DNA from: Styela clava
Lineage: Eukaryota; Chordata; Ascidiacea; Stolidobranchia; Styelidae
NCBI RefSeq assembly: GCF_964204865.1
Contig: NC_135261.1
Span: forward strand, 8,432,001 to 8,496,000
Direction: 5' to 3'
DNA length: 64,000 bases
The translations under genes were made by a program, and so were the position numbers. Numbering within the stretch: the stretch's first letter is position 1; each line of letters starts with the position of its first letter. Positions 1 through 49,611 of the stretch are shown in pieces. Under the pieces are notes generated by a model, which made no database searches, was not told where the DNA came from, and saw only the letters and a program-made list of their open reading frames with translations.

Positions 1-49
1 ATTTTAAAATCAAGGCTCAAAATGTCGTTGTAAACTACGGCTATTGATG

Positions 50-121
50 GGCTCGTTGGTCTAGGGGTATGATTCTCGCTTTGGGTGCGAGAGGTCTCGG
101 GTTCGAATCCCGAACGAGCCC
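50..121 (+). tRNA. tRNA-Pro(UGG), class P-UGG
   Basis: First and reference copy of class P-UGG. It is 72 nt with no intron and decodes proline codons. Acceptor GGCTCGT pairs with ACGAGCC, followed by discriminator C. Anticodon stem CTCGC/GCGAG encloses loop TTTGGGT, giving anticodon TGG. T-arm is TCGGG, TTCGAAT, CCCGA, fully paired here. The internal promoter is the D-arm A box and the T-arm B box (GGTTCGAATCC). A TTTT run six bases downstream is the likely Pol III terminator. The body matches the standard animal tRNA-Pro(UGG). Other copies commonly have CCCGG in the T-stem (U.G at the base) or ACGAGCT at the 3' end (G.U at the acceptor tip). Confidence 0.93.
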
Positions 122-180
122 TTGCTTTTGTATCACTACCCAGTCTGAACCAATGACTCATTTAATAACTTCTCATAATT

Positions 181-195
181 CAGACAGAATGTCTG
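181..195. promoter_or_regulatory. Short hairpin upstream of each Tyr gene
   Basis: Perfect inverted repeat CAGACA-GAA-TGTCTG about 75-90 bp upstream of each Y3 gene. The homologous place before Y1 keeps GACA-GAT-TGTC; before Y2 it has decayed to GACAGAATATC. The conserved TGATCATGT follows in all three. It may be an upstream promoter element or merely shared ancestry of the flanks; no function is shown. Confidence 0.35.
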
Positions 196-269
196 ATCAT
201 GTGTTTTGGTTTTTGTATTAAACATTTCAATTCATGAATTTTGAATCAGGCGTCATGCCGGAGGTATGC

Positions 270-357
270 CCTTCGATAGCTCAGTTGATAGACCGGTGGA
301 CTGTAGGGGTAGAATGCTGAGATCTATAGGTCGCTGGTTCGAATCCGGCTCGAGGGA
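270..357 (+). tRNA. tRNA-Tyr(GUA)-like, degenerate D-arm, class Y3
   Basis: Reference copy of class Y3, 88 nt including a 15-nt intron after G37. Acceptor CCTTCGA pairs with TCGAAGG (here TCGAGGG, a U.G pair), C1-G72 and A73 being the eukaryotic tyrosine identity set. Anticodon loop CTGTAG gives GUA. Two class-wide defects sit in the D-arm: the loop reads AGTTGATA instead of AGTTGGTA, losing one of the G18-G19 pair that docks with the T-loop, and the stem reads GCTC/GACC, a C.C mismatch. The intron differs from Y1/Y2 (GGGTAGAATGCTGAG). A T-run follows directly. Because every copy shares the defects, they arose before amplification. Probably weak or non-functional, but Pol III boxes are still recognisable. 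Confidence 0.65.
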
Positions 358-419
358 ATTTTTTTTTTCAATATGGAGATCTAAGTAAATTTGTTATGTC
401 TGCATAGACTTTCATTATA

Positions 420-475
420 TTGAATAGGTCGTTGTGAACATCGCCTTTTGTTCAAATCCGGAAAGATTCCTCACT
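420..475 (+). pseudogene. Relic of a tRNA-Pro gene (T-arm only)
   Basis: Between every Y3 and Y1 lies a piece resembling the Pro 5' flank (GTCGTTGTGAACATCG) fused to a Pro T-arm (TTGTTCAAATCCGG) and a Pro-type 3' flank. The acceptor, D-arm and anticodon arm are gone. The relic recurs about 176-180 bp after each Y3 start and marks a Pro gene lost before the 1564-bp unit amplified. Confidence 0.6.
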
Positions 476-625
476 ATTGTATAACTGCCCATTCAAGATC
501 AAATTTTTACTTAATAATAACAATTTCTCATCAATCTGACAGATTGTCCGATCATGTGTTTTTTTTCATGTTATATCTCAATTTATGAACTCCAACTCAG
601 GAGTAATGCTTCCATAGTCGTGTGT

Positions 626-713
626 CCTTCGATAGCTCAGTTGATAGAGCGGTGGACTGTATTGATAAAAAGCTGATATCCATAGGTCGCTGGTTCGAAT
701 CCGGCTCGAAGGA
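626..713 (+). tRNA. tRNA-Tyr(GUA) with intron, class Y1
   Basis: First Y1 copy, 88 nt. Class consensus: acceptor CCTTCGA/TCGAAGG with A73, D-arm GCTC-AGTTGGTA-GAGC, anticodon stem GTGGA/TCCAT, loop CTGTAG with anticodon GUA, a 15-nt intron TGATACAAAGCTGAT after position 37, T-arm GCTGG-TTCGAAT-CCGGC. A box TAGCTCAGTTGG and B box GGTTCGAATCC are intact in the consensus; TTTT follows 3 nt after the gene. The intron position is the conserved one for nuclear tRNA splicing. This particular copy is off-consensus: the D-loop has GATA for GGTA, G37 is T, and the intron has AAAAA for ACAAA. Confidence 0.85.
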
Positions 714-938
714 GCTTTTGAAACAGATGAAATTTGTAATTTTTACACAATATATGATTTGAGTTTCACCCTTCACCTCTCCGGTTCTCTGTCTTACGTA
801 ATATATCGCAATATTTCTATTTATCCATTTCAATGCTATCTTATCCTGTCAGTCCAAAATACCCCAATATCTGCATAGAGTTTGCGTATTTCAAAAATGA
901 ACGCTGAAAATGTCGTTGTAAATCTCAAGCTATCGATT

Positions 939-1010
939 GGCTCGTTGGTCTATGTGTATGATTCTAGCTTTCGATGCGAGAGGTTCCGTGATTAAATCAC
1001 GGACGAGACT
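939..1010 (+). tRNA. tRNA-Pro-derived gene with UCG anticodon, class P-UCG
   Basis: First P-UCG copy, 72 nt. The class is clearly a tRNA-Pro body (GGCTCGTTGG start, same flanks), but the anticodon loop is TTTCGGT, so the anticodon is UCG (reads CGA, Arg) instead of UGG. Class-wide changes: D-loop ATGTG for AGGGG, 3' acceptor ACGAGAC or ACGAGTC (mismatch with G2), discriminator T for C, and a T-stem that changed on both sides to CCGTG/CACGG and so stays paired. TTTT follows 5-6 nt downstream. An annotation program would call it Arg or a Pro pseudogene. This copy has further damage: CTAGC/GCGAG stem and T-loop ATTAAAT. Confidence 0.6.
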
Positions 1011-1163
1011 TCGCTTTTGTATCACTTCCCAGTCTGAACCAATATCTCATTTATTAACTTTTCAATAATAGGACAGAACATCTGATCATGTTTTTTGGTT
1101 TTTGTATTAAACATCTCCATTTATGAACGTCAACTCAGGCGTAATGCATTACTATTCGTATGA

Positions 1164-1251
1164 CCTTCGATAGCTCAGTTGGTAGAGCGGTGGAATGTAG
1201 TGATATAAAGCTGATATCCATAGGTCGCTGGTTCGAATCCGGCTCGAAAGA
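1164..1251 (+). tRNA. tRNA-Tyr(GUA) with intron, class Y2
   Basis: First Y2 copy, 88 nt. Same exons as Y1; the class intron is TGATAGAAAGCTGAT and the 3' flank is GATCTTTTGAAATAG, with TTTT 3 nt after A73. Here C32 is A, one acceptor pair is lost (TCGAAAG) and the intron has ATATAAAG. The consensus of the class looks fully functional; this copy is less certain. Confidence 0.8.
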
Positions 1252-5245: not shown

Positions 5246-5317
5246 GGCTCGTTGGTCTAGGGGTATGATTCTCGCTTTGGGTGCGAGAGGTCTCGGGTTC
5301 AAATCCCGGACGAGCCC
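5246..5317 (+). tRNA. tRNA-Pro(UGG)
   Basis: P-UGG, all stems paired with a U.G at the base of the T-stem (TCGGG/CCCGG). Start of a 1565-bp unit almost identical to the next one. Confidence 0.92.
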
Positions 5318-5466
5318 TTGCTTTTGTATCACTACCCAGTCTGAACCAATGACTCATTTAATAACTTCTCATAATTCAGACAGAATGTCTGATCATGTGT
5401 TTTGGTTTTTGTATTAAACATTCCAATTCAAGAATTTTAAAATCAGGCGTCATGCCGGAGATATGC

Positions 5467-5554
5467 CCTTCGATAGCTCAGTTGATAGACCGGTGGACTG
5501 TAGGGGTAGAATGCTGAGATCTATAGGTCGCTGTTTCGAATCCGGCTCGAAGGA
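5467..5554 (+). tRNA. tRNA-Tyr-like, class Y3
   Basis: Y3 with an extra T-stem mismatch (GCTGT/CCGGC), which also alters the B box. Confidence 0.5.
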
Positions 5555-5818
5555 ATTTTTTTAATAGGGAGATCTAAGTAAATTTGTTATGTCTGCATAG
5601 ACTTTCATTATATTGAATAGGACGTTGTGAACATCGCCTTTTGTTCAAATCCGGAAAGATTCCTCACTATTGTATAACTGCCCATTCAAGATCAAATTTT
5701 TACTTAATAATAACAATTTCTCATCAATCTGACAGATTGTCCGATCATGTGTTTTTTTTCATGTTATATCTCAATTTATGAACTCCAACTCAGGAGTAAT
5801 GCTTCCATAGACGTGTGT

Positions 5819-5906
5819 CCTTCGATAGCTCAGTTGGTAGAGCGGTGGACTGTAGTGATACAAAGCTGATATCCATAGGTCGCTGGTTCGAATCCGGCTC
5901 GAAGGA
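5819..5906 (+). tRNA. tRNA-Tyr(GUA) with intron, class Y1
   Basis: Exact Y1 consensus. Confidence 0.95.
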
Positions 5907-6131
5907 GCTTTTGAAACAGATGAAATTTGTAATTTTTACACAATATATGATTTGAGTTTCACCCTTCCCCTCTCCGGTTCTCTGTCTTACGTAATATATA
6001 GCAATATTTCTATTTCTCCATTTCAATGCTATCTTATCCTGTCAGTCCAAAATACCCCAATATCTGCATAGAGTTTAAGTATTTCAAAAATGAACGCTGA
6101 AAATGTCGTTGTAAACCTCAAGCTATCGATT

Positions 6132-6203
6132 GGCTCGTTGTTCTATGTGTATGATTCTCGCTTTCGGTGCAAGAGGTCCCGTGTTCAAATCACGGACGAG
6201 ACT
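6132..6203 (+). tRNA. tRNA-Pro-derived, UCG anticodon
   Basis: P-UCG with G10 changed to T (TTGTTCTATG). Confidence 0.55.
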
Positions 6204-6356
6204 TCGCTTTTGTATCACTTCCCAGTCTGAACCAATATCTCATTTATTAACTTCTTGATATTAGGACAGAATATCTGATCATGTTTTTTGGTTTTTGTAT
6301 TAAACATCTCCATTTATGAACGTCAACTCAGGCGTAATGCATTCCTAGTCGCGTGA

Positions 6357-6444
6357 CCTTCGATAGCTCAGTTGGTAGAGCGGTGGACTGTAGTGATAGA
6401 AAGCTGATATCCATAGGTCGCTGGTTCGAATCAGGCTCGAAGGA
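6357..6444 (+). tRNA. tRNA-Tyr(GUA) with intron, class Y2
   Basis: Y2 with one T-stem mismatch (GCTGG/CAGGC). Confidence 0.85.
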
Positions 6445-6810
6445 TCTTTTGAAATAGATTAAATTTGTAATTTTTGAACAATATATGATTTGAGTTTCAC
6501 CCTTCCTCTCTCCGGTTCTCTGTCTTTCGTAATATATCGCAATGTTTCTATTTCTCCATGTCAATACTATCTTAACCTTCCAGATAAATTTTATAATAGA
6601 TGAAATTTGTAATTTTTAAAACAATATATGACTTGAGTTTCACCTTTCCTCTCTCCGGTTCTCTTTCTTCCGTATTATATGTCAAGGTTTCTATTTATCC
6701 ATATCAATACTATCTTAACCTCTGAGTCTAAAATACCCCAATGTTTGCATAGAAGTTGATTATTTTAAAATCAAGGCTCAAAATGTCGTTGTAAACTTTG
6801 GCTATTGATG

Positions 6811-12715: not shown

Positions 12716-12868
12716 TCGCTTTTGTATCACTTCCCAGTCTGAACCAATATCTCATTTATTAACTTCTCGATATTAGGACAGAATATCTGATCATGTTTTT
12801 TGGTTTTTGTATTAAACATCTCCATTTATGAACGTCAACTCAGGCGTAATGCATCCCTAGTCGTGTGA

Positions 12869-12956
12869 CCTTCGATAGCTCAGTTGGTAGAGCGGTGGAC
12901 TGTAGTGATAGAAAGCTGATATCCATAGGTCGCTGGTTCAAATCCGGCTCGAAGGA
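12869..12956 (+). tRNA. tRNA-Tyr(GUA) with intron, class Y2
   Basis: Y2 with T-loop TTCAAAT in place of TTCGAAT, an accepted B-box variant. Confidence 0.92.
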
Positions 12957-13321
12957 TCTTTTGAAATAGATTAAATTTGTAATTTTTGAACAATATATGA
13001 TTTGAGTTTCACCCTTCATCTCTCCGGTTCTCTGTCTTTCGTGATATATCGCAATGTTTCTATTTCTACATGTCAATACTATCTTAACCTTCCAGATAAA
13101 TTTTATAATAGATGAAATTTGTAATTTTTAAAACAATATATGACTTGAGTTTCACCTTTCCTCTCTCCGGTTCTCTTTCTTCCGTATTATATGTCAAGGT
13201 TTCTATTTATCCATGTCAATACTATCTTAACCTCTGAGTCTAAAATACCCCAATGTTTGCATAGAGTTTGATTATTTTAAAATAAAGGCTCAAAATGTCG
13301 TTGTAAACTTTGGCAATGATG

Positions 13322-13393
13322 GGCTCGTTGGTCTAGGGGTATGATTATCGCTTTGGGTGCGAGAGGTCTCGGGTTCAAATCCCGAACGAGCTC
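13322..13393 (+). tRNA. tRNA-Pro(UGG)
   Basis: As 10848, including the ATCGC stem change. Confidence 0.8.
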
Positions 13394-13541
13394 TTGCTTT
13401 TGTATCACTACCCAGTCTGGAACAATGACTCATTTAATAACTTCTCATAATTCAGACAGAATGTCTGATCATGTGTTTTGGTTTTTGTATTAAACATTTC
13501 AATTCATGAATTTTAAATCAGGCGTCATGCCGGAGATATGC

Positions 13542-13629
13542 CCTTTGATAGCTCAGTTGATAGACCGGTGGACTGTAGGGGTAGAATGCTGAGGTCTATA
13601 GGTCGCTTGTTCGAATCCGGCTCGAAGTA
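13542..13629 (+). tRNA. tRNA-Tyr-like, class Y3, damaged
   Basis: As 11068 (CCTTTGA, TCGAAGT, GCTTG). Confidence 0.45.
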
Positions 13630-13893
13630 ATTTTTTTAATAGGGAGTGCTAAGTAAATTTGTTATGTCTGCATAGACTTTCATTATATTGAATAGGACGT
13701 TGTGAACATCGCCTTTTGTTCAAATCCGGAAAGATTCCTCACTATTGTATAACTGCCCATTCAAGATCAAATTTTTACTTAATAATAACAATTTCTCATC
13801 AATCTGACAGATTGTCCGATCATGTTTTTTTTTTCATGTTATATCTCAATTTATGAACTCCAACTCAGGAGTAATGCTTCCATAGACGTGTGT

Positions 13894-13981
13894 CCTTCGA
13901 TAGCTCAGTTGGTAGAGCGGTGGACTGTAGTGATGCAAAGCTGATATCCATAGGTCGCTGGTTCGAATCCGGCTCGAAGGA
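13894..13981 (+). tRNA. tRNA-Tyr(GUA) with intron, class Y1
   Basis: As 11420, intron with ATGCAAAG. Confidence 0.95.
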
Positions 13982-14206
13982 GCTTTTGAAACAGATGAAA
14001 TTTGTAATTTTTACACAATATATGATTTGAGTTTCACCCTTCCACTCTCCGGTTCTCTGTCTTACGTAATATATAGCAATATTTCTATTTCTCCATTTCA
14101 ATGCTATCTTATCCTGTCAGTCCAAAATACCCCAATATCTGCATAGAGTTTAAGTATTTCAAAAATGAACGCTGAAAATGTCGTTGTAAACCTCAAGCTA
14201 TCGATT

Positions 14207-14278
14207 GGCTCGTTGGTCTATGTGTATGATTCTCGCTTTCGGTGCAAGAGGTCCCGTGTTCAAATCACGGACGAGACT
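14207..14278 (+). tRNA. tRNA-Pro-derived, UCG anticodon
   Basis: P-UCG with the usual CTCGC/GCAAG mismatch. Confidence 0.6.
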
Positions 14279-14431
14279 TCGCTTTTGTATCACTTCCCAG
14301 TCTGAACCAATATCTCATTTATTAACTTCTCGATATTAGGACAGAATATCTGATCATGTTTTTTGGTTTTTGTATTTAACATCTCCATTTATGAACGTCA
14401 ACTCAGGCGTAATGCATCCCTTGTCGTGTGA

Positions 14432-14519
14432 CCTTCGATAGCTCTGTTGGTAGAGCGGTGGACTGTAGTGATAGAAAGCTGATATCCATAGGTCGCTGGT
14501 TCGAATCCGGCTCGAAGGA
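14432..14519 (+). tRNA. tRNA-Tyr(GUA) with intron, class Y2
   Basis: Y2 with A14 changed to T (GCTCTGTTGG), which hits the A box; the partner at 24557 keeps A. Confidence 0.8.
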
Positions 14520-14844
14520 TCTTTTGAAATAGATTAAATTTGTAATTTTTGAACAATATATGATTTGAGTTTCACCCTTCCTCTCTCCGGTTCTCTGTCT
14601 TTCGTAATATATCGCAATGTTTCTATCTCTCCATGTCAATACTATCTTAACCTTCCAGATAAATTTTATAATAGATGAAATTTGTAATTTTTAAAACAAT
14701 ATATGACTTGAGTTTCACCTTTCCTCTCTCCGGTTCTCTTTCTTCCGTATTATATGTCAAGGTTTCTATTTATCCATATCAATACTATCTTAACCTCTGA
14801 GTCCAAAATACCCCAATGTTTGCAGAGAGTTTGATTATTTTAAA

Positions 14845-14892
14845 CACAAAGCTGATATCCATAGGTCGCTGGTTCGAATCCGGCTCGAAGGA
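14845..14892 (+). pseudogene. 3' half of a Y1 tRNA-Tyr gene
   Basis: Same fusion as 12371. Confidence 0.85.
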
Positions 14893-15117
14893 GCTTTTGA
14901 AACAGATGAAATGTGTAATTTTTACACAATATATGATTTGAGTTTCCCCATTCCCCTCTCCGGTTCTCTGTCTTACGTAATATATCGCAATATTTCTATT
15001 TCTCCATTTCAATGCTATCTTATCCTGTCAGTCCAAAATACCCCAATATCTGCATAGAGTTTAAGTATTTCAAAAATGAACGCTGAAAATGTCGTTGTAA
15101 ACCTCAAGCTATCGATT

Positions 15118-15189
15118 GGCTCGTTGGTCTATGTGTTTGATTCTCGCTTTCGGTGCAAGAGGTCCCGTGTTCAAATCACGGACGAGACT
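15118..15189 (+). tRNA. tRNA-Pro-derived, UCG anticodon
   Basis: As 12644 (GTGTTTGATT). Confidence 0.55.
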
Positions 15190-15342
15190 TCGCTTTTGTA
15201 TCACTTCCCAGTCTGAACCAATATCTCATTTATTAACTTCTCGATATTAGGACAGAATATCTGATCATGTTTTTTGGTTTTTGTATTAAACATCTCCATT
15301 TATGAACGTCAACTCAGGCGTAATGCATCCCTAGTCGTGTGA

Positions 15343-15430
15343 CCTTCGATAGCTCAGTTGGTAGAGCGGTGGACTGTAGTGATAGAAAGCTGATATCCAT
15401 AGGTCGCTGGTTCAAATCCGGCTCGAAGGA
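15343..15430 (+). tRNA. tRNA-Tyr(GUA) with intron, class Y2
   Basis: As 12869 (TTCAAAT). Confidence 0.92.
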
Positions 15431-15795
15431 TCTTTTGAAATAGATTAAATTTGTAATTTTTGAACAATATATGATTTGAGTTTCACCCTTCATCTCTCCG
15501 GTTCTCTGTCTTTCGTGATATATCGCAATGTTTCTATTTCTACATGTCAATACTATCTTAACCTTCCAGATAAATTTTATAATAGATGAAATTTGTAATT
15601 TTTAAAACAATATATGACTTGAGTTTCACCTTTCCTCTCTCCGGTTCTCTTTCTTCCGTATTATATGTCAAGGTTTCTATTTATCCATGTCAATACTATC
15701 TTAACCTCTGAGTCCAAAATACCCCAATGTTTGCATAGAGTTTGATTATTTTAAAATAAAGGCTCAAAATGTCGTTGTAAACTTTTGCAATGATG

Positions 15796-15867
15796 GGCTC
15801 GTTGGTCTAGGGGTATGATTCTCGCTTTGGGTGCGAGAGGTCTCGGGTTCAAATCCCGAACGAGCCC
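15796..15867 (+). tRNA. tRNA-Pro(UGG)
   Basis: P-UGG with every stem fully paired (TCGGG/CCCGA; ACGAGCC). Confidence 0.94.
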
Positions 15868-16015
15868 TCTCTTTTGTATCACTACCCAGTCTGAACCAAT
15901 GACTCATTTAATAACTTCTCATAATTCAGACAGAATGTCTGATCATGTGTTTTGGTTTTTGTATTAAACATTTCAATTCATGAATTTTAAATCAGGAGTC
16001 ATGCCGGAGATATGC

Positions 16016-16103
16016 CCTTCGATAGCTCAGTTGATAGACCGGTGGACTGTAGGGGTAGAATGCTGAGGTCTATAGGTCGCTTGTTCGAATCCGGCTCGAA
16101 GGA
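16016..16103 (+). tRNA. tRNA-Tyr-like, class Y3
   Basis: Y3 with T-stem GCTTG/CCGGC. Confidence 0.5.
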
Positions 16104-16359
16104 ATTTTTTTAATAGGGAGATCAAAGTAAATTTGTTATGTCTGCATAGACTTTCATTATATTGAATAGGACGTTGTGAACATCGCCTTTTGTTCAAATC
16201 CGGAAAGATTCCTCACTATTGTATAACTGCCCATTCAAGATCAAATTTTTACTTAATAATATCAATTTCTCATCAATCTGAAGATTGTCCGATCATGTGT
16301 TTTTTTTCATGTTATATCTCAATTTATGAACTCCAACTCAGGAGTAATGCTTCCATAGA

Positions 16360-16447
16360 CCTTCGATAGCTCAGTTGGTAGAGCGGTGGACTGTAGTGAT
16401 ACAAAGCTGATATCCATAGGTCGCTGGTTCGAATCCGGCTCGAAGGA
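16360..16447 (+). tRNA. tRNA-Tyr(GUA) with intron, class Y1
   Basis: Y1 consensus, but the 5' flank is shortened: CATAGAC joins the gene directly, without GTGTGT. The following 60 bp carry a probable conversion patch. Confidence 0.93.
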
Positions 16448-16672
16448 GCTTTTGAAACAGATGAAATGTGTAATTTTTACACAATATATGATTTGAGTTT
16501 CCCCATTCCCCTCTCCGGTTCTCTGTCTTACGTAATATATAGCAATATTTCTATTTCTCCATTTCAATGCTATCTTATCCTGTCAGTCCAAAATACCCCA
16601 ATATCTGCATAGAATTTAAGTATTTCAAAAATGAACGCTGAAAATGTCGTTGTAAACCTCAAGCTATCGATT

Positions 16673-16744
16673 GGCTCGTTGGTTTATGTGTATGATTCTC
16701 GCTTTCGGTGCAAGAGGTCCCGTGTTCAAATCACGGACGAGACT
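16673..16744 (+). tRNA. tRNA-Pro-derived, UCG anticodon
   Basis: P-UCG with GGTTTATGTG in the D-arm. Confidence 0.55.
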
Positions 16745-16897
16745 TCGATTTTGTATCACTTCCCAGTCTGAACCAATATCTCATTTATTAACTTCTCGAT
16801 ATTAGGGAAGAATATCTGATCATGTTTTTTGGTTTTTGTATTAAACATCTCCATTTATGAACGTCAACTCAGGCGTAATGCATTCCTAGTCGTGTGA

Positions 16898-16985
16898 CCT
16901 TCGATAGCTCAGTTGGTAGAGCGGTGGACTGTAGTGATAGAAAGCTGATATCCATAGATCGCTGGTTCGAATCCGGCTCGAAGGA
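16898..16985 (+). tRNA. tRNA-Tyr(GUA) with intron, class Y2
   Basis: Y2 with variable region AGATC for AGGTC. Confidence 0.92.
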
Positions 16986-17351
16986 TCTTTTGAAATAGAT
17001 TAAATTTGTAATTTTTGAACAATATATGATTTGAGTTTCACCCTTCCTCTCTCCGGTTCTCTGTCTTTCGTAATATATCGCAATGTTTCTATTTCTCCAT
17101 GTCAATACTATCTTAACCTTCCAGATAAATTTTATAATAGATGAAATTTGTATTTTTTAAAACAATATATGACTTGAGTTTCACCTTTCCTCTCTCCGGT
17201 TCTCTTTCTTCCGTATTATATGTCAAGGTTTCTATTTATCCATATCAATACTATCTTAACCTCTGAGTCCAAAATACCCCAATGTTTGCATAGAAGTTGA
17301 TTATTTTAAAATCAATGCTCAAAATGTCGTTGTAAACATTGGCTATTGATG

Positions 17352-17423
17352 GGCTCGTTGGTCTAGGGGTATGATTCTCGCTTTGGGTGCGAGAGGTCTC
17401 GGGTTCAAATCCCGGACGAGGCC
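17352..17423 (+). tRNA. tRNA-Pro(UGG)
   Basis: P-UGG with 3' acceptor ACGAGGC, a G.G mismatch at the second pair. Confidence 0.8.
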
Positions 17424-17571
17424 TTGTTTTTGTATCACTACCCAGTCTGAACCAATGACTCATTTAATAACTTCTCATAATTCAGACAGAATGTCTGATC
17501 ATGTGTTTTGGTTTTTGTATTAAACATTTCAATTCATGAATTTTAAATCAGGCGTCATGCCGGAGATATGC

Positions 17572-17659
17572 CCTTCGATAGCTCAGTTGATAGACCGGTG
17601 GACTGTGGGGGTAGAATGCTGAGATCTATAGGTCGCTGGTTCGAATCCGGCTCGAAGGA
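17572..17659 (+). tRNA. Y3 tRNA-Tyr-like with GUG (His) anticodon
   Basis: The loop reads CTGTGG, so the anticodon is GUG rather than GUA; body otherwise Y3. Shared by the duplicate at 27697. Confidence 0.6.
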
Positions 17660-17923
17660 ATTTTTTTAATAGGGAGATCTAAGTAAATTTGTTATGTCTG
17701 CATAGACTTTCATTATATTGAAGAGGTCGTTGTGAACATCGCTTTTTGTTCAAATCCGGAAAGATTCCTCACTATTGTATAACTGACCATTCAAGATCAA
17801 ATTTTTACTTAATAATACCAATTTCTCATCAATCTGACAGATTGTCCGATCATGTGTTTTTTTTCATGTTATATCTCAATTTATGAACTCCAACTCAGAA
17901 GTAATGCTTCCATAGACGTTTGT

Positions 17924-18011
17924 CCTTCGATAGCTCAGTTGGTAGAGCGGTGGACTGTAGTGATACAAAGCTGATATCCATAGGTCGCTGGTTCGAATCC
18001 GGCTCGAAGGA
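17924..18011 (+). tRNA. tRNA-Tyr(GUA) with intron, class Y1
   Basis: Y1 consensus. Confidence 0.95.
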
Positions 18012-18236
18012 GCTTTTGAAACAGATGAAGTTTGTAATTTTTACACAATATATGATTTGAGTTTCACCCTTCCTCTCTCCGGTTCTCTGTCTTACGTAAT
18101 ATATCGCAATATTTCTATTTATCCATTTCAATGCTATCTTATCCTGTCAGTCCAAAATACCCCAATATCTGCATAGAGTTTAAGTATTTCAAAAATGAAC
18201 GCTGAAAATGTCGTTGTAAACCTCAAGCTGTCGATT

Positions 18237-18308
18237 GGCTCGTTGGTCTATGTGTATGATTCTCGCTTTCGGTGCAAGAGGTCCCGTGTTCAAATCACGG
18301 ACGAGTCT
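18237..18308 (+). tRNA. tRNA-Pro-derived, UCG anticodon
   Basis: P-UCG, 3' end ACGAGTC. The flank just upstream has CTGTCGAT, while the duplicate has CTATCGAT. Confidence 0.6.
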
Positions 18309-18461
18309 TCGCTTTTGTATCACTTCCCAGTCTGAACCAATATCTCATTTATTAATTTCTCGATATTAGGACAGAATATCTGATCATGTTTTTTGGTTTT
18401 TGTATTAAACATCTCCATTTATGAACGTCAACTCAGGCGTAATGCATTCCTAGTCGTGTGA

Positions 18462-18549
18462 CCTTCGATATCTCAGTTGGTAGAGCGGTGGACTGTGGTG
18501 ATAGAAAGCTGATATCCATAGGTCGCTGGTTCGAATCCGGCTCGAAGGA
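18462..18549 (+). tRNA. Y2 tRNA-Tyr body with GUG (His) anticodon
   Basis: The loop reads CTGTGG, anticodon GUG, nominally His. The same copy has G10 changed to T (GATATCTCAG), altering the A box. Acceptor with C1-G72 and A73, intron and T-arm remain Tyr-like. One of six copies with this pair of changes. Confidence 0.65.
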
Positions 18550-18915
18550 TCTTTTGAAATAAATTAAATTTGTAATTTTTGAACAATATATGATTTGAGT
18601 TTCACCCTTCCTCTCTCCGGTTCTCTGTCTTTCGTAATATATCGCAATGTTAATATTTCTCCATGTCAATACTATCTTAACCTTCCAGATAAATTTTGTA
18701 ATAGATGAACTTTGTAATTTTTAAACCAATATATGACTTGAGTTTCACCTTTCCTCTCTCCGGTTCTCTTTCTTCCGTATTATATGTCAAGGTTTCTATT
18801 TATCCATGTCAATACTATCTTAACCTCTGAGTCCAAAATACCCCAATGTTTGCATAGAGTTTGATTATTTTAAAATCAAGGCTCAAAATGTCGTTGTAAA
18901 CTTTGGCTATTGGTG

Positions 18916-18987
18916 GGCTCGTTGGTCTAGGGGTATGATTCTCGCTTTGGGTGCGAGAGGTCTCGGGTTCAAATCCCGGACGAGCTC
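18916..18987 (+). tRNA. tRNA-Pro(UGG)
   Basis: P-UGG with acceptor tip G.U (ACGAGCT). Confidence 0.88.
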
Positions 18988-19135
18988 TTGCTTTTGTATC
19001 ACTACCCAGTCTGAACCAATGACTCATTTAATAACTTCTCATAATTCAGACAGAATGTCTGATCATGTGTTTTGGTTTTTGTATTAAACATTTCAATTCA
19101 TGAATTTTAAATCAGGCGTCATGCCGGAGATATGC

Positions 19136-19223
19136 CCTTCGATAGCTCAGTTGATAGACCGGTGGACTGTAGGGGTAGAATGCTGAGATCTATAGGTCGC
19201 TGGTTCGAATCCGGCTCGAAGTA
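19136..19223 (+). tRNA. tRNA-Tyr-like, class Y3
   Basis: Y3 with terminal acceptor mismatch (TCGAAGT). Confidence 0.5.
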
Positions 19224-19487
19224 ATTTTTTTAATAGGGAGATCTAAGTAAATTTGTTATGTCTGCATAGACTTTCATTATATTGAATAGGTCGTTGTGAA
19301 CATCGCCTTTTGTTCAAATCCGGAAAGATTCCTCACTATTGTATAACTGCCCATTCAAGATCAAATTTTTACTTAATAATAACAATTTCTCATCAATCTG
19401 ACAGATTGTCCGATCATGTTTTTTTTTTCATGTTATATCTCAATTTATGAACTCCAACTCAGGAGTAATGCTTCCATAGACGGATGT

Positions 19488-19575
19488 CCTTCGATAGCTC
19501 AGTTGGTAGAGCGGTGGACTGTAGTGATACAAAGCTGATATCCATAGGTCGCTGTTTCGAATCCGGCTCGAAGGA
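19488..19575 (+). tRNA. tRNA-Tyr(GUA) with intron, class Y1
   Basis: Y1 with one T-stem mismatch (GCTGT/CCGGC) and an interrupted B box; 3' flank GTTTTTG. Confidence 0.8.
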
Positions 19576-19642
19576 GTTTTTGAAACAGATGAAATTTGTA
19601 ATTTAAAACAATATATGATTTGAGTTTCACCCTTCCCTCTCC

Positions 19643-19702
19643 GGTTCTCTGTCTTACGTAATATATCACAATGGTTCTCTGTCTTACGTAATATATCACA
19701 AT
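19643..19702. repeat. 30-bp tandem duplication in a Tyr 3' flank
   Basis: GGTTCTCTGTCTTACGTAAT begins at 19643 and again at 19673. It explains the 1592-bp unit length and recurs in the right 10-kb copy. Confidence 0.85.
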
Positions 19703-19828
19703 GTTTCTATTTCTCCATTTCGATACTATCTTATCCTGTCAGTCCAAAATACCCCAATATCTGCATAGAGTTTAAGTATTTCAAAAATGAACGCTGAAAA
19801 TGTCGTTGTAAACCTCAAGCTATCGATT

Positions 19829-19900
19829 TTCTCTTTGGTCTATGTGTATGATTCTCGCTTTCGGTGCGAGAGGTCCCGTGTTCAAATCACGGACGAGTCT
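19829..19900 (+). tRNA. tRNA-Pro-derived, UCG anticodon, damaged acceptor
   Basis: The first two bases are TT instead of GG and the acceptor reads TTCTCTT, so the helix is broken. Anticodon stem CTCGC/GCGAG is fully paired. Likely a pseudogene. Confidence 0.45.
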
Positions 19901-20053
19901 TCGCTTTTGTATCACTTCCCAGTCTGAACCAATATCTCATTTATTAATTTCTCGATATTAGGACAGAATATCTGATCATGTTTTTTGGTTTTTGTATTAA
20001 ACATCTCCATTTATGAACGTCAACTCAGGCGTAATGCATTCCTAGTCGTGTGA

Positions 20054-20141
20054 TCTTCGATATCTCAGTTGGTAGAGCGGTGGACTGTGGTGATAGAAAG
20101 CTGATATCCATAGGTCGCTGGTTCGAATCCGGCTCGAAGGA
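20054..20141 (+). tRNA. Y2 tRNA-Tyr body with GUG (His) anticodon
   Basis: As 18462, and C1 is changed to T, removing the C1-G72 tyrosine identity pair. Confidence 0.55.
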
Positions 20142-20507
20142 TCTTTTGAAATAGATTAAATTTGTAATTTTTGAACAATATATAATTTGAGTTTCACCCT
20201 TCCTCTCTCCGGTTCTCTGTCTTTCGTAATATATCGCAATGTTAATATTTCTCCATGTCAATACTATCTTAACCTTCCAGATAAATTTTGTAATAGATGA
20301 ACTTTGTAATTTTTAAACCAATATATGACTTGAGTTTCACCTTTCCTCTCTCCGGTTCTCTTTCTTCCGTATTATATGTCAAGGTTTCTATTTATCCATG
20401 TCAATACTCTCTTAACCTCTGAGTCCAAAATACCCCAATGTTTGCATAGAGTTTGATTATTTTAAAATCAAGGCTCAAAATGTCGTTGTAAACTTTGGCT
20501 ATTGGTG

Positions 20508-20579
20508 GGCTCGTTGGTCTAGGGGTATGATTCTCGCTTTGGGTGCAAGAGGTCTCGGGTTCAAATCCCGGACGAGCTC
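20508..20579 (+). tRNA. tRNA-Pro(UGG)
   Basis: P-UGG with an anticodon-stem mismatch (CTCGC/GCAAG) and ACGAGCT end. Confidence 0.8.
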
Positions 20580-20727
20580 TTGCTTTTGTATCACTACCCA
20601 GTCTGAACCAATGACTCATTTAATAACTTCTCATAATTCAGACAGAATGTCTGATCATGTGTTTTGGTTTTTGTATTAAACATTTCAATTCATGAATTTT
20701 AAATCAGGCGTCATGCCGGAGATATGC

Positions 20728-29040: not shown

Positions 29041-29112
29041 GGCTCGTTGGTCTAGGGGTATGATTCTCGCTTTGGGTGCGAGAGGTCTCGGGTTCAAATC
29101 CCGGACGAGCTC
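29041..29112 (+). tRNA. tRNA-Pro(UGG)
   Basis: Partner of 18916 (ACGAGCT). Confidence 0.88.
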
Positions 29113-29260
29113 TTGCTTTTGTATCACTACCCAGTCTGAACCAATGACTCATTTAATAACTTCTCATAATTCAGACAGAATGTCTGATCATGTGTTTTGG
29201 TTTTTGTATTAAACATTTCAATTCATGAATTTTAAATCAGGCGTCATGCCGGAGATATGC

Positions 29261-29348
29261 CCTTCGATAGCTCAGTTGATAGACCGGTGGACTGTAGGGG
29301 TAGAATGCTGAGATCTATAGGTCGCTGGTTCGAATCCGGCTCGAAGTA
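29261..29348 (+). tRNA. tRNA-Tyr-like, class Y3
   Basis: Partner of 19136 (TCGAAGT). Confidence 0.5.
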
Positions 29349-29612
29349 ATTTTTTTAATAGGGAGATCTAAGTAAATTTGTTATGTCTGCATAGACTTTC
29401 ATTATATTGAATAGGTCGTTGTGAACATCGCCTTTTGTTCAAATCCGGAAAGATTCCTCACTATTGTATAACTGCCCATTCAAGATCAAATTTTTACTTA
29501 ATAATAACAATTTCTCATCAATCTGACAGATTGTCCGATCATGTTTTTTTTTTCATGTTATATCTCAATTTATGAACTCCAACTCAGGAGTAATGCTTCC
29601 ATAGACGGATGT

Positions 29613-29700
29613 CCTTCGATAGCTCAGTTGGTAGAGCGGTGGACTGTAGTGATACAAAGCTGATATCCATAGGTCGCTGTTTCGAATCCGGCTCGAAGGA
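29613..29700 (+). tRNA. tRNA-Tyr(GUA) with intron, class Y1
   Basis: Partner of 19488 (GCTGT). The 30-bp flank duplication follows at about 29768-29827. Confidence 0.8.
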
Positions 29701-29953
29701 GTTTTTGAAACAGATGAAATTTGTAATTTAAAACAATATATGATTTGAGTTTCACCCTTCCCTCTCCGGTTCTCTGTCTTACGTAATATATCACAATGGT
29801 TCTCTGTCTTACGTAATATATCACAATGTTTCTATTTCTCCATTTCGATACTATCTTATCCTGTCAGTCCAAAATACCCCAATATCTGCATAGAGTTTAA
29901 GTATTTCAAAAATGAACGCTGAAAATGTCGTTGTAAACCTCAAGCTATCGATT

Positions 29954-30025
29954 TTCTCTTTGGTCTATGTGTATGATTCTCGCTTTCGGTGCGAGAGGTC
30001 CCGTGTTCAAATCACGGACGAGTCT
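29954..30025 (+). tRNA. tRNA-Pro-derived, UCG anticodon, damaged acceptor
   Basis: Partner of 19829 (TTCTCTT). Confidence 0.45.
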
Positions 30026-30178
30026 TCGCTTTTGTATCACTTCCCAGTCTGAACCAATATCTCATTTATTAATTTCTCGATATTAGGACAGAATATCTGA
30101 TCATGTTTTTTGGTTTTTGTATTAAACATCTCCATTTATGAACGTCAACTCAGGCGTAATGCATTCCTAGTCGTGTGA

Positions 30179-30266
30179 TCTTCGATATCTCAGTTGGTAG
30201 AGCGGTGGACTGTGGTGATAGAAAGCTGATATCCATAGGTCGCTGGTTCGAATCCGGCTCGAAGGA
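30179..30266 (+). tRNA. Y2 tRNA-Tyr body with GUG (His) anticodon
   Basis: Partner of 20054, with T1. Confidence 0.55.
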
Positions 30267-30632
30267 TCTTTTGAAATAGATTAAATTTGTAATTTTTGAA
30301 CAATATATAATTTGAGTTTCACCCTTCCTCTCTCCGGTTCTCTGTCTTTCGTAATATATCGCAATGTTAATATTTCTCCATGTCAATACTATCTTAACCT
30401 TCCAGATAAATTTTGTAATAGATGAACTTTGTAATTTTTAAACCAATATATGACTTGAGTTTCACCTTTCCTCTCTCCGGTTCTCTTTCTTCCGTATTAT
30501 ATGTCAAGGTTTCTATTTATCCATTTCAATACTCTCTTAACCTCTGAGTCCAAAATACCCCAATGTTTGCATAGAGTTTGATTATTTTAAAATCAAGGCT
30601 CAAAATGTCGTTGTAAACTTTGGCTATTGGTG

Positions 30633-30704
30633 GGCTCGTTGGTCTAGGGGTATGATTCTCGCTTTGGGTGCAAGAGGTCTCGGGTTCAAATCCCGGACGA
30701 GCTC
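30633..30704 (+). tRNA. tRNA-Pro(UGG)
   Basis: Partner of 20508 (GCAAG). Confidence 0.8.
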
Positions 30705-30852
30705 TTGCTTTTGTATCACTACCCAGTCTGAACCAATGACTCATTTAATAACTTCTCATAATTCAGACAGAATGTCTGATCATGTGTTTTGGTTTTTGTA
30801 TTAAACATTTCAATTCATGAATTTTAAATCAGGCGTCATGCCGGAGATATGC

Positions 30853-30940
30853 CCTTCGATAGCTCAGTTTTTAGACCGGTGGACTTTAGGGGTAGAATGC
30901 TGAGATCTATAGGTCGCTGGTTCGAATCCGGCTCGAAGGA
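30853..30940 (+). tRNA. Y3 tRNA-Tyr-like with UUA anticodon
   Basis: Partner of 20728; loop CTTTAG. The D-loop has decayed further to AGTTTTTA, so both G18 and G19 are gone. Confidence 0.55.
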
Positions 30941-31204
30941 ATTTTTTTAATAGGGAGATCTAAGTAAATTTGTTATGTCTGCATAGACTTTCATTATATT
31001 GAATAGGTCGTTGTGAACATCGCCTTTTGTTCAAATCCGGAAAGATTCCTCACTATTGTATAACTGCCCATTCAAGATCAAATTTTTACTTAATAATAAC
31101 AATTTCTCATCAATCTGACAGATTGTCCGATCATGTTTTTTTTTTCATGTTATATCTCAATTTATGAACTCCAACTCAGGAGTAATGCTTCCATAGACGG
31201 ATGT

Positions 31205-31292
31205 CCTTCGATAGCTCAGTTGGTAGAGCGGTGGACTGTAGTGATACAAAGCTGATATCCATAGGTCGCTGTTTCGAATCCGGCTCGAAGGA
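31205..31292 (+). tRNA. tRNA-Tyr(GUA) with intron, class Y1
   Basis: Partner of 21080 (GCTGT). Confidence 0.8.
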
Positions 31293-31515
31293 GCTTTTGA
31301 AACAGATGAAATTTGTAATTTAAAACAATATATGATTTGAGTTTCACCCTTCCCTCTCCGGTTCTCTGTCTTACGTAATATATCACAATGTTTCTATTTC
31401 TCCATTTCGATACTATCTTATCCTGTCAGTCCAAAATACCCCAATATCTGCATAGAGTTTAAGTATTTCAAAAATGAACGCTGAAAATGTCGTTGTAAAC
31501 CTCAAGCTATCGATT

Positions 31516-31587
31516 TTCTCTTTGGTCTATGTGTATGATTCTCGCTTTCGGTGCGAGAGGTCCCGTGTTCAAATCACGGACGAGACT
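31516..31587 (+). tRNA. tRNA-Pro-derived, UCG anticodon, damaged acceptor
   Basis: Partner of 21391. Confidence 0.45.
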
Positions 31588-31739
31588 TCGATTTTGTAGC
31601 ACTTCCCAGTCTGAACCAATATCTCATTTATTAACTTCTCGATATTAGGACAGAATATCTGATCATGTTTTTGGTTTTTGTATTAAACATCTCCATTTAT
31701 GAACGTCAACTCAGGCGTAATGCATTCCTAGTCGTGTGA

Positions 31740-31827
31740 CCTTCGATAGCTCAGTTGGTAGAGCGGTGGACTGTAGTGATAGAAAGCTGATATCCATAGG
31801 TCGCTGGTTCGAATCCGGCTCGAAGGA
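31740..31827 (+). tRNA. tRNA-Tyr(GUA) with intron, class Y2
   Basis: Partner of 21615; consensus. Confidence 0.95.
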
Positions 31828-32193
31828 TCTTTTGAAATAGATTAAATTTGTAATTTTTGAACAATATATGATTTGAGTTTCACCCTTCCTCTCTCCGGTT
31901 CTCTGTCTTTCGTAATATATCGCAATGTTTCTATTTCTCCATGTCAATACTATCTTAACATTCCAGATAATTTTTATAATAGATGAAATTTGTAATTTTT
32001 AAAACAATATATGACTTGAGTTTCACCTTTCCTCTCTCCGGTTCTCTTTCTTCCGTATTATATGTCAAGGTTTCTATTTATCCATGTCAATACTATCTTA
32101 ACCTCTGAGTCCAAAATACCCCAATGTTTGCATAGAGTTTGATTATTTTAAAATCAAGGCTCAAAATGTCGTTGTAAACTTCGGCTATTGATG

Positions 32194-32265
32194 GGCTCGT
32201 TGGTCTAGGGGTATGATTCTCCCTTTGGGTGCGAGGGTTCTCGGGTTCAAATCCCAGACGAGACC
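32194..32265 (+). tRNA. tRNA-Pro(UGG), damaged
   Basis: Partner of 22069. Confidence 0.65.
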
Positions 32266-32413
32266 TTGCTTTTGTATCACTACCCAGTCTGAACCAATGA
32301 CTCATTTAATAACTTCTCATAATTCAGACAGAATGTCTGATCATGTGTTTTGGTTTTTGTATTAAACATTTCAATTCATGAATTTTAAATCAGGCGTCAT
32401 GCCGGAGATATGC

Positions 32414-32501
32414 CCTTCGATAGCTCAGTTGATAGACCGGTGGACTGTAGGGGTAGAATGCTGAGATCTATAGGTCGCTGGTTCGAATCCGGCTCGAAGG
32501 A
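32414..32501 (+). tRNA. tRNA-Tyr-like, class Y3
   Basis: Partner of 22289. Confidence 0.6.
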
Positions 32502-32766
32502 ATTTTTTTAATAGGGAGATCTAAGTAAATTTGTTATGTCTGCATAGACTTTCATTATATTGAATAGGTCGTTGTGAACATCGCCCTTTGTTCAAATCCG
32601 GAAAGATTCCTCACTATTGTATAACTGCCCATTCAAGATCAAATTTTTACTTAGTAATAACAATTTCTCATCAATCTGACAGATTGTCCGATCATTCTTT
32701 TTTTTTTCATGTTATATCTCAATTTATGAACTCCAACTCAGGAGTAATGCTTCCATAGACGGATGT

Positions 32767-32854
32767 CCTTCGATAGCTCAGTTGGTAGAGCGGTGGACTG
32801 TAGTGATACAAAGCTGATATCCATAGGTCGCTGGTTCGAATCCGGCTCGGAGGA
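32767..32854 (+). tRNA. Hybrid Y1/Y3 tRNA-Tyr(GUA)
   Basis: Partner of 22642; the same TCGGAGG end and Y3-type 3' flank. Confidence 0.85.
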
Positions 32855-33118
32855 ATTTTTTTAATAGGGAGATCTAAGTAAATTTGTTATGTCTGCATAG
32901 ACTTTCATTATATTGAATAGGTCGTTGTGAACATCGCCTTTTGTTCAAATCCGGAAAGATTCCTCACTATTGTATAACTGCCCATTCAAGATCAAATTTT
33001 TACTTAATAATAACAATTTCTCATCAATCTGACAGATTGTCCGATCATGTTTTTTTTTTCATGTTATATCTCAATTTATTAACTCCAACTCAGGAGTAAT
33101 GCATTCCTAGTCGTGTGA

Positions 33119-33206
33119 CCTTCGATAGCTCAGTTGGTAGAGCGGTGGACTGTAGTGATAGAAAGCTGATATCCATAGGTCGCTGGTTCGAATCCGGCTC
33201 GAAGGA
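33119..33206 (+). tRNA. tRNA-Tyr(GUA) with intron, class Y2
   Basis: Partner of 22994 but with the normal A14. Confidence 0.93.
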
Positions 33207-33572
33207 TCTTTTGAAATAGATTAAATTTGTAATTTTTGAACAATATATGATTTGAGTTTCACCCTTCCTCTCTCCGGTTCTCTGTCTTTCGTAATATATC
33301 GCAATGTTTCTATTTCTCCATGTCAATACTATCTTAACCTTCCAGATAAATTTTATAATAGATGAAATTTGTAATTTTTAAAACAATATATGACTTGAGT
33401 TTCACCTTTCCTCTCTCCGGTTCTCTTTCTTCCGTATTATATGTCAAGGTTTCTATTTATCCATATCAATACTATCTTAACCTCTGAGTCCAAAATACCC
33501 CAATGTTTGCATAGAAGTTGATTATTTTAAAATCAAGGCTCAAAATGTCGTTGTAAACTTTGGCTATTGATG

Positions 33573-47854: not shown

Positions 47855-47942
47855 CCTTCGATAGCTCAGTTGATAGACAGGTGGACTGTAGGGGTAGAAT
47901 GCTGAGATCTATAGATCGCTGGTTCGAATCCGGCTCGAAGGA
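47855..47942 (+). tRNA. tRNA-Tyr-like, class Y3
   Basis: D-arm GACAGG; variable region AGATC. Confidence 0.5.
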
Positions 47943-48206
47943 ATTTTTTTAATAGGGAGATCTAAGTAAATTTGTTATGTCTGCATAGACTTTCATTATA
48001 TTGAATAGGTCGTTGTGAACATCGCCTTTTGTTCAAATCCGGAAAGATTCCTCACTATTGTATAACTGCCCATTCAAGATCAAATTTTTACTTAATAATA
48101 ACAATTTCTCATCAATCTGACAGATTGTCCGATCATGTTTTTTTTTTAATGTTATATCTCAATTTATGAACTCCAACTCAGGAGTAATGCTTCCATAGAC
48201 GTGTGT

Positions 48207-48294
48207 CCTTCGATAGCTCAGTTGGTAGAGCGGTGGACTGTAGTGATACAAAGCTGATATCCATAGGTCGCTGGTTCGAATCCGGCTCGAAGGA
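48207..48294 (+). tRNA. tRNA-Tyr(GUA) with intron, class Y1
   Basis: Y1 consensus; last intact Y1 in the array. Confidence 0.95.
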
Positions 48295-48519
48295 GCTTTT
48301 GAAACAGATGAAATTTGTAATTTTTACACAATATATGATTTGAGTTTCACCCTTCCTCTCTCCGGTTCTCTGTCTTACGTAATATATCACAATATTTCTA
48401 TTTCTCCATTTCAATACTATCTTATCCTGTCAGTCCAAAATACCCCAATATCTGCATAGAGTTTAAGTATTTCAAAAATGAACGCTGAAAATGTCGTTGT
48501 AAACCTCAAGCTATCGATT

Positions 48520-48591
48520 GGCTCGTTGGTCTATGTGTATGATTCTCGCTTTCGGTGCGAGAGGTCCCGTGTTCAATTCACGGACGAGACT
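48520..48591 (+). tRNA. tRNA-Pro-derived, UCG anticodon
   Basis: Anticodon stem fully paired (GCGAG); T-loop TTCAATT. Confidence 0.55.
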
Positions 48592-48743
48592 TCGATTTTG
48601 TATCACTTCCCAGTCTGAACCAATATCCCATTTTTTAACTTCTCGATATTAGGACAGAATATCTGATCATGTTTTTTGGTTTTTATATTAAACATCTCCA
48701 TTTATGAACGCAACTCAGGCGTAATGCATTCCTAGTCGTGTGA

Positions 48744-48831
48744 CCTTCGATAGCTCAGTTGGTAGAGCGGCGGACTGTAGTGATAGAAAGCTGATATCCA
48801 TAGGTCGCTGGTTCAAATCCGGCTCGAAGGA
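48744..48831 (+). tRNA. tRNA-Tyr(GUA) with intron, class Y2
   Basis: Anticodon stem GCGGA, T-loop TTCAAAT; last Y2. Confidence 0.8.
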
Positions 48832-49192
48832 TCTTTTGAAATAGATCAAATTTGTGATTATTGAACAATATATGATTTGAGTTTCACCCTTCCTCTCTCC
48901 GGTTCTCTGTCTCTCGTAATATATCGCAATGTTTCTATTTCTCCATGTCAATACTATCTTAACCTTTCAGATAAATTTTATAATAGATGAAATTTGTAAT
49001 TATTAAAACAATATATGACTTGAGTTTCACCTTTCCTCTCTCCGGTTCTCTTTCTTCCGTATCATATGTCAAGGTTTCTAATTATCCATGCCAATACTAT
49101 CTTAACCTCTCAGTCCAAAATACCCCAATGTTCGCATAGACTTTGATTATTTAAAATCAAGGCTCAAAATGTCGTTTTGTAATGACTCAGTC

Positions 49193-49213
49193 GTTCAAAT
49201 CCCGGACGAGCCC
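49193..49213 (+). pseudogene. 3' end of a tRNA-Pro gene
   Basis: Only the T-loop, the 3' T-stem strand and ACGAGCC plus C remain, after a shortened 5' flank (GTCGTTTTGTAATGACTCAG). The array decays towards its right edge. Confidence 0.85.
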
Positions 49214-49361
49214 TTGCTTTTGTATCACTACCCAGTCTGAACCAATGACTCATTTAATAACTTCTCATATTTCAGACAGAATGTCTGATCATGTGTTTTG
49301 ATTTTTGTATTAAACATTTCAATTCATGAACTTTAAATGAGGCGTCATGCCGGAGATATGC

Positions 49362-49449
49362 CCTTCGATAGCTCAGTTGACGGTCCGGTGGACTGTAGGG
49401 GTAGAATGCTGAGATCTATAGGTCGCTGATTCGAATCCGGCTCGAAGGA
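49362..49449 (+). tRNA. tRNA-Tyr-like, class Y3, damaged
   Basis: The D-arm reads GTTGACGGTCCGG, further from consensus; T-arm GCTGA. Confidence 0.4.
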
Positions 49450-49594
49450 ATTTTTTTAATAGGGAGATCTAAGTAAATTTGTTATGTCTGCATGGACTTT
49501 CATTATATCTTATCCTGTCAGTCCAAAATACCCCAATGTCTGCATAGAGTTTGACTATTTTAAAATCAAGGCTGAAAATGTCGTTGTTTCGATG

Positions 49595-49607
49595 GGCTCG
49601 TTGGTCC
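49595..49607 (+). pseudogene. 5' end of a tRNA-Pro gene, cut at the array border
   Basis: GGCTCGTTGGTCC with a Pro-type 5' flank, then foldback-array DNA (CGACATTGAATGAG). The left edge of region 2 therefore lies inside a tRNA D-arm. Confidence 0.85.
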
Positions 49608-49611
49608 AGCC

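Follow-up and report, generated by a model that had tools for sequence, protein, structure and literature searches.

A higher-order tandem array of proline- and tyrosine-type transfer RNA gene copies, probably satellite-like, in Styela clava

Large tandem arrays of transfer RNA (tRNA) genes appear to have arisen many times, since they are described in Entamoeba (PMC2652664) as well as in animal clusters (PMC2888827, PMC11075544). The closest known case to the locus presented here is the SYY cluster of Arabidopsis thaliana, a tandem repeat of tRNA-Ser, tRNA-Tyr and tRNA-Tyr on chromosome 1. According to its description, it is silent in most tissues, reactivated in root tips and linked to the Ser/Tyr/Pro-rich extensins; the same source reports that 13 of 54 clustered Arabidopsis Tyr genes yield tRNA-like RNAs and refers to the tandem tRNA-Ala genes of the Bombyx silk gland (PMC12308677). 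In E. histolytica and E. dispar, short tandem repeats are described between the tRNA genes of the arrays (PMC2652664). The subject of this work is an array of proline (Pro)- and tyrosine (Tyr)-type tRNA copies in a stretch of 64,000 nucleotides of Styela clava (NCBI RefSeq assembly GCF_964204865.1, contig NC_135261.1, positions 8,432,001 to 8,496,000 of the forward strand), hereafter the window, whose coordinates are used throughout. It is probably a satellite-like higher-order array derived from a nuclear tRNA-Pro/tRNA-Tyr gene pair, which would have grown by unequal exchange and would hold a redundant pool of putative Tyr and Pro genes. Since this kind of structure is known, most closely from Arabidopsis (PMC12308677), it is less surprising than judged in an earlier note on this DNA, which had called it striking. 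No description of an animal Pro-Tyr tandem array was found in the literature searched.

The copy census was made by BLAST with Pro and Tyr tRNA bodies over the window. It yielded 153 full-length tRNA-like copies and 6 fragments, every one of them on the + strand within positions 1-49609, in an array which crosses the left window edge. The claims of the earlier note on copy number, uniform strand, constant gene order, entry across the window edge and an end of the array at approximately 49,609 were thus reproduced. The 31 minus-strand BLAST rows were short 13-base matches, not genes. Five classes make up the array: 30 copies of a Pro body with the anticodon UGG (P-UGG), 31 of a Pro body with the anticodon UCG (P-UCG) and three Tyr-type classes, Y1 (29 copies, two of which have a 3' flank like that of Y3), Y2 (33) and Y3 (30). 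As in an SYY-type array, the units are placed head to tail, each with several tRNA genes in one orientation; the unit length is approximately 1,564 bp, and the canonical order P-UGG, Y3, Y1, P-UCG, Y2 is present in 23 of the 30 stretches led by P-UGG, the other seven being irregular. The spacing from one P-UGG to the next was mostly 1,556-1,592 bp, with longer steps of approximately 2,473 bp, in which half a unit including a truncated Tyr is added, and shorter steps of 501 and approximately 1,378 bp, in which parts of the unit are missing. The 23 canonical units, when aligned, had a mean identity of 96.9% (range 95.2-100%), and the representative one at 5246-6810 (+) shows 0.83% site divergence from the unit consensus. 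The gathering score of the Rfam tRNA model was reached by 112 of the 153 copies (Y1 29/29, Y2 33/33, P-UGG 25/30, Y3 25/30 and P-UCG 0/31), with no Rfam match in the flank beyond 49,609 within the window. ARAGORN, run with the bacterial code, made 82 calls, all on the + strand, some of them labelled Arg, Leu or Thr. Chance or a simple misreading is ruled out by 153 full-length matches on one strand to two tRNA bodies.

With the SYY cluster, the array shares a tandem multi-tRNA unit, two intron-bearing Tyr positions, class-marking intron variants, pseudogenes among the copies, a core of tandem duplications and, possibly, variable edges (PMC12308677). The differences are that the partner is Ser there and Pro here, that more copies are in view here and that the Pro clusters of Arabidopsis are separate from the SYY cluster (PMC12308677); moreover, the unit here combines three Pro-Tyr monomers that have diverged, and two of its classes are broken. 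The Entamoeba arrays likewise have tandem units, with up to five tRNA genes, homogenised within the array, but nearly all tRNA genes of that organism are described in 25 kinds of array (PMC2652664), as opposed to one two-family array with broken members here. Nematostella and teleosts are described as having clusters of at least fifty genes, mostly in parallel and with pseudogenes among them (PMC2888827), and a very large cluster of this kind is described on zebrafish chromosome 4 (PMC11075544). The parts of these two sources consulted describe animal clusters with different amino-acid pairings, and none with a Pro-Tyr higher-order unit (PMC2888827, PMC11075544).

A copy was taken as strictly intact when all stems were paired, the chosen invariant bases were kept and a run of at least four T was present. 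Altogether 48 of 153 copies passed: 13/30 P-UGG, 18/29 Y1, 17/33 Y2 and none of the 30 Y3 or 31 P-UCG. The T-run was present within 25 nt 3' of 152 of the 153 copies, including 92/92 of P-UGG, Y1 and Y2. With our own patterns for the internal promoter of RNA polymerase III (Pol III), the A box was matched in 30/30 P-UGG, 28/29 Y1, 25/33 Y2, 0/30 Y3 and 0/31 P-UCG, and the B box in 26/30, 22/29, 31/33, 20/30 and 0/31, respectively. The mature consensus of Y1 and of Y2 is the same 73-nt tRNA-Tyr(GUA), with a 15-nt intron after position 37 in each. The Tyr introns are class-specific: TGATACAAAGCTGAT in Y1, TGATAGAAAGCTGAT in Y2 and GGGTAGAATGCTGAG in Y3, the commonest 15-nt form being present in 21 of 27 Y1 (two more Y1-type copies were left out), 26 of 33 Y2 and 29 of 30 Y3 copies. 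For the Y1 and Y2 consensus precursors, a cloverleaf is predicted (z -2.2 and -2.0) in which a 3-nt gap flanks the 4-bp intron helix on either side; judged by the pairing rules, the P-UGG consensus gives a sound Pro body. Y3 as a class has an A at position 19 and one broken D-stem pair; in P-UCG, G2 is mismatched with A71 and the D-loop is altered, and the consensus showed no folding advantage over shuffled sequences (z +0.94). In the representative unit, the five copies, all on the + strand, are P-UGG at 5246-5317 (Rfam 53.4 bits), Y3 at 5467-5554 (35.8 bits), Y1 at 5819-5906 (61.4 bits), P-UCG at 6132-6203 and Y2 at 6357-6444 (53.7 bits). The anticodon is TGG in 30/30 copies of P-UGG (one copy of which is 71 nt long). 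Other anticodons were UCG in 31/31 copies of the second Pro class, GUG in 6/33 Y2 and 2/30 Y3, and UUA in 2/30 Y3.

Of what the earlier note had read from the letters, the large single-orientation, higher-order array of intron-bearing Tyr and Pro copies stands, but two classes out of five, comprising 61 of 153 copies, are broken throughout. Its statement that most Y1, Y2 and P-UGG copies keep the stems, the Pol III boxes and the T-run is true only narrowly, with 48 of 92 passing the strict rules and approximately half failing them, and there is no selection signal on pooled single copies (see below). Its "only two amino-acid families" applies to the gene bodies but not to the anticodons.

The P-UCG copies which ARAGORN calls are labelled Arg or similar, many of them Arg(TCG), which makes this class an annotation trap. 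A working Pro-to-Arg recoding tRNA was also considered for P-UCG and rejected, given the G2-A71 mismatch, the altered D-loop, and 0/31 copies both at the Rfam gathering score and with the box patterns.

The unit consensus, when compared by BLAST with itself, gave matches of 76-84% at the monomer offsets; a three-way alignment was also made. The approximately 1,564-bp unit consists of three diverged Pro-Tyr monomers, namely P-UGG with Y3, a probable Pro relic with Y1, and P-UCG with Y2, the last being followed by a duplicated spacer of approximately 143 bp. In the unit starting at 1618, the probable Pro gene relic of the middle monomer lies at 1989-2034 (+, coordinates set by eye) between Y3 and Y1. 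When aligned, it matches P-UGG at 25 of 46 sites and P-UCG at 24 of 46; this likeness is weak on its own, and the collinear flanks add support to its being the remnant of the middle Pro gene. Between the Y1 and Y2 monomer consensuses, the mature Tyr is identical at 73/73 positions and the intron at 14/15, as opposed to 272/357 in the aligned spacers (Fisher P 2.5e-8). The spacer identity depends on the alignment: the value of 272/357 comes from MAFFT on hand-cut consensus monomers, and the BLAST piece of the two monomers has 83.9% identity over 403 columns including the Y genes and approximately 80% outside the Tyr gene, which leaves the conclusion unchanged. Because the mature Y1 and Y2 are fully identical and the spacers are so much less alike, the Tyr body must have been held in an older phase, by selection or by gene-limited gene conversion, while the monomers diverged. 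Y3 and Y1 are identical at 70/73 mature positions compared to 191/283 in the spacers, and Y3, too, stayed constrained for some time after the monomer split. No constraint between monomers was seen for the Pro bodies, with P-UGG and P-UCG identical at 63/72 positions compared to 339/414 in the spacers (P 0.31). A stretch around AACTCAGG.GTAATGC is apparently common to the upstream regions of Y1, Y2 and Y3, for example approximately 50 nt before 5819; it could be a promoter element or merely a less diverged part of the spacer.

The array has several marks of a tandem array in turnover. A block of approximately 10.6 kb at 12835-23444 (+) has a second copy at 22960-33569 (+), shifted by 10,125 bp and 99.74% identical (28 mismatches, no gaps). 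Likeness between units falls off slightly with distance (97.4% at less than 2 kb compared to 96.6% at 30-50 kb; rho -0.20, with pairs that are not independent). The right edge, at 49142-49609 (+), is degraded, with truncated Pro genes at 49193-49213 and 49595-49609 around a Y3 at 49362-49449. The most divergent units are two late ones (2.8% and 3.1%), the last full unit differs by 2.1%, and the left end lies beyond the window; sound and pseudogene copies are mixed within the array. Since block duplication, distance-dependent likeness and a truncated edge are all expected from unequal exchange in a tandem array, we infer that unequal exchange between sister or homologous arrays drove the growth.

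Selection on the amplified copies was assessed by parsimony changes, by context-matched alleles compared with spacer sites, and by the damaging share of changes compared with a random-mutation null. P-UGG, Y1 and Y2 were taken as sound classes and Y3 and P-UCG as broken ones, and a restricted set excluded the edges and the second block copy. Parsimony changes per site, counted in the 23 canonical units with the seven irregular stretches left out, were 0.51 for P-UGG, 0.36 for Y3, 0.35 for P-UCG, 0.26 for Y2, 0.20 for the spacers and 0.18 for Y1. The sound classes had 50 derived alleles over all units compared to 39.4 expected from context-matched spacers, and 31 compared to 28.8 in the restricted set; the P-UGG bodies exceeded the spacers in variability over all units (22 alleles compared to 13.1 expected, P 0.015). 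The damaging share of distinct changes, with the number expected from the random null in brackets, was 7/12 (7.1) for Y1, 13/19 (11.3) for Y2 and 15/28 (16.5) for P-UGG, and 15/26 (15.2) for Y3 and 14/25 (14.7) for P-UCG in the broken classes. Overall, purifying selection on single copies was not seen for the pooled sound classes in either the allele or the damaging-share tests, and in the recent phase the amplified tRNA bodies as a group are not protected relative to the spacers. If transcribed tRNA genes mutate faster, selection could be masked in the rate tests, but not in the damaging-share test. The broken classes had 40 derived alleles compared to 25.7 expected (31 compared to 18.6 in the restricted set). 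As this is approximately 1.6 times the level of context-matched spacer sites, the mutation rate of tRNA bodies may exceed that of spacers even in broken copies.

In the proposed history of the satellite-like array, a Pro-Tyr monomer was first present in at least three tandem copies; as the monomer homology shows, their spacers diverged while the mature Tyr body was kept unchanged in two copies. Of the Pro genes, one probably decayed and a second took on the UCG anticodon, with loss of its promoter boxes; in the first monomer, the D arm of the Tyr gene (Y3) broke. The unit structure shows that the three monomers then became one 1.56-kb unit, amplified head to tail to approximately 30 units in the window. 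This amplification included duplications and deletions of single units and of several units at once. Pol III could transcribe the approximately one-third of the copies which keep the promoter boxes, the fold and the terminator, and splicing of the Tyr precursors would fall to the usual tRNA endonuclease. With redundancy so high, the loss of any one copy might have no detectable cost, and the copies would therefore decay at approximately the rate of the spacers while exchange renews the array. The array may thus be both satellite DNA and a putative buffer of Tyr and Pro tRNA genes. Several results weigh against this explanation. In the inner array, Y1 has 5 alleles compared to 9.8 expected from the spacers (P 0.08), and its 5/73 lies below the 33/145 of the broken classes (P 0.002, or P 0.027 over all units, in a comparison made post hoc). 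The inner-array sound classes together (31/218) are also below the broken ones (33/145, P 0.026), with 50/218 compared to 40/145 over all units (P 0.19). Because the Y1 alleles fall below both the spacer expectation and the broken classes in the inner array, a weak constraint on Y1 alone is possible. Moreover, the minimum-energy structure predicted for the P-UGG consensus differs from a cloverleaf; in silico folding is often poor for unmodified tRNAs.

The main competitor is a silent satellite, that is, a heterochromatic array making no tRNA, in which the intact copies have merely not yet decayed. It is consistent with amplified copies without net constraint, with the 61 of 153 copies in broken classes, with adjoining DNA which is another tandem array (units of approximately 1.95 kb) and with the silence of the Arabidopsis cluster in most tissues as described in PMC12308677. 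Many copies, however, keep internal promoters and terminators, the Tyr bodies are conserved between monomers, and the SYY cluster is reported to be reactivated in some cells (PMC12308677), so that we consider complete silence possible but rather doubtful. At the other extreme stands a working production array, in which most copies of Y1, Y2 and P-UGG would be transcribed and maintained by selection to meet an unusually high demand for tRNA-Tyr and tRNA-Pro, e.g., for a secreted structural protein rich in Tyr and Pro. The Rfam gathering score (62/62 Y1 and Y2, 25/30 P-UGG), the T-run in 92/92 of these copies, the precedents of the SYY cluster with its extensins and of the Bombyx silk-gland tRNA-Ala genes (PMC12308677) and the hint of constraint on Y1 all speak for it. 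In comparison, 44 of the 92 copies fail the strict rules, the damaging share in all three classes fits the no-selection null, and the P-UGG bodies vary more than the spacers, which makes such an array improbable. Even less likely is a paired Tyr and Pro reserve, perhaps used only by a secretory tissue or the germ line, that serves a Tyr/Pro-rich structural protein (for example cuticle, silk or adhesive); if true, the array would correspond in an animal to the SYY and P clusters of Arabidopsis, joined in one unit.

Two further explanations concern the origin of the copies and their number. A by-product of mobile elements, i.e., tRNA-bearing retroelements (short interspersed nuclear elements or Helenus-type terminal-repeat retrotransposons in miniature) turned tandem, might be suggested by the tRNA-like long terminal repeats of Helenus, one zebrafish family of which is described in tandem arrays (PMC10886601), and by the zinc-knuckle, retroelement-like open reading frame at 62949-63998. 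Yet each unit holds five tRNA-like genes belonging to two families, its Tyr genes are complete and carry introns, and Helenus elements are reported to be 311-1263 bp long with tRNA-like sequences unlikely to be functional (PMC10886601); a Helenus origin is unlikely, and the mobile-element explanation as a whole is very improbable. The assembly could also inflate the copy number if the 10.6-kb repeat represented two haplotypes joined head to tail, and 28 mismatches per 10.6 kb would be within the range of heterozygosity. Such a join would nevertheless cover at most approximately 10 kb of the 49.6 kb, and the other units differ by approximately 3%, hence we regard it as unlikely. A virus origin was probed with the exact 37-base Tyr exon pattern, which had no match in viral contigs, a set from which records near the window's own genome were possibly excluded.

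If the satellite-like array formed as proposed, the locus would be a readable case of tRNA genes turning into satellite DNA, with two phases recorded in one unit: an older one, in which the Tyr bodies were fixed and the spacers drifted, and a recent one, in which the copies multiply and decay at approximately the spacer rate. The class-marked introns and bodies would let tRNA sequencing ask whether such arrays are used. For annotation, taking all 153 copies as genes would overstate the number of Tyr and Pro genes, and a standard scanner labels the 31 Pro-body relics Arg wherever they are called.

Directly after the tRNA array, a second tandem array occupies 49612-62870 of the window, with seven anchors spaced 1,940-2,002 bp apart and 37-bp subrepeats. 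The one unit examined, at 51583-53530, has inverted arms of 390 nt with 80% complementarity and resembles a foldback-like satellite. After this second array, a frame of 350 amino acids at 62949-63998 (+) is open to the window end and contains a CCHC zinc knuckle (Pfam zf-CCHC, E 3.1e-05); it is probably a retroelement gag or ORF1.

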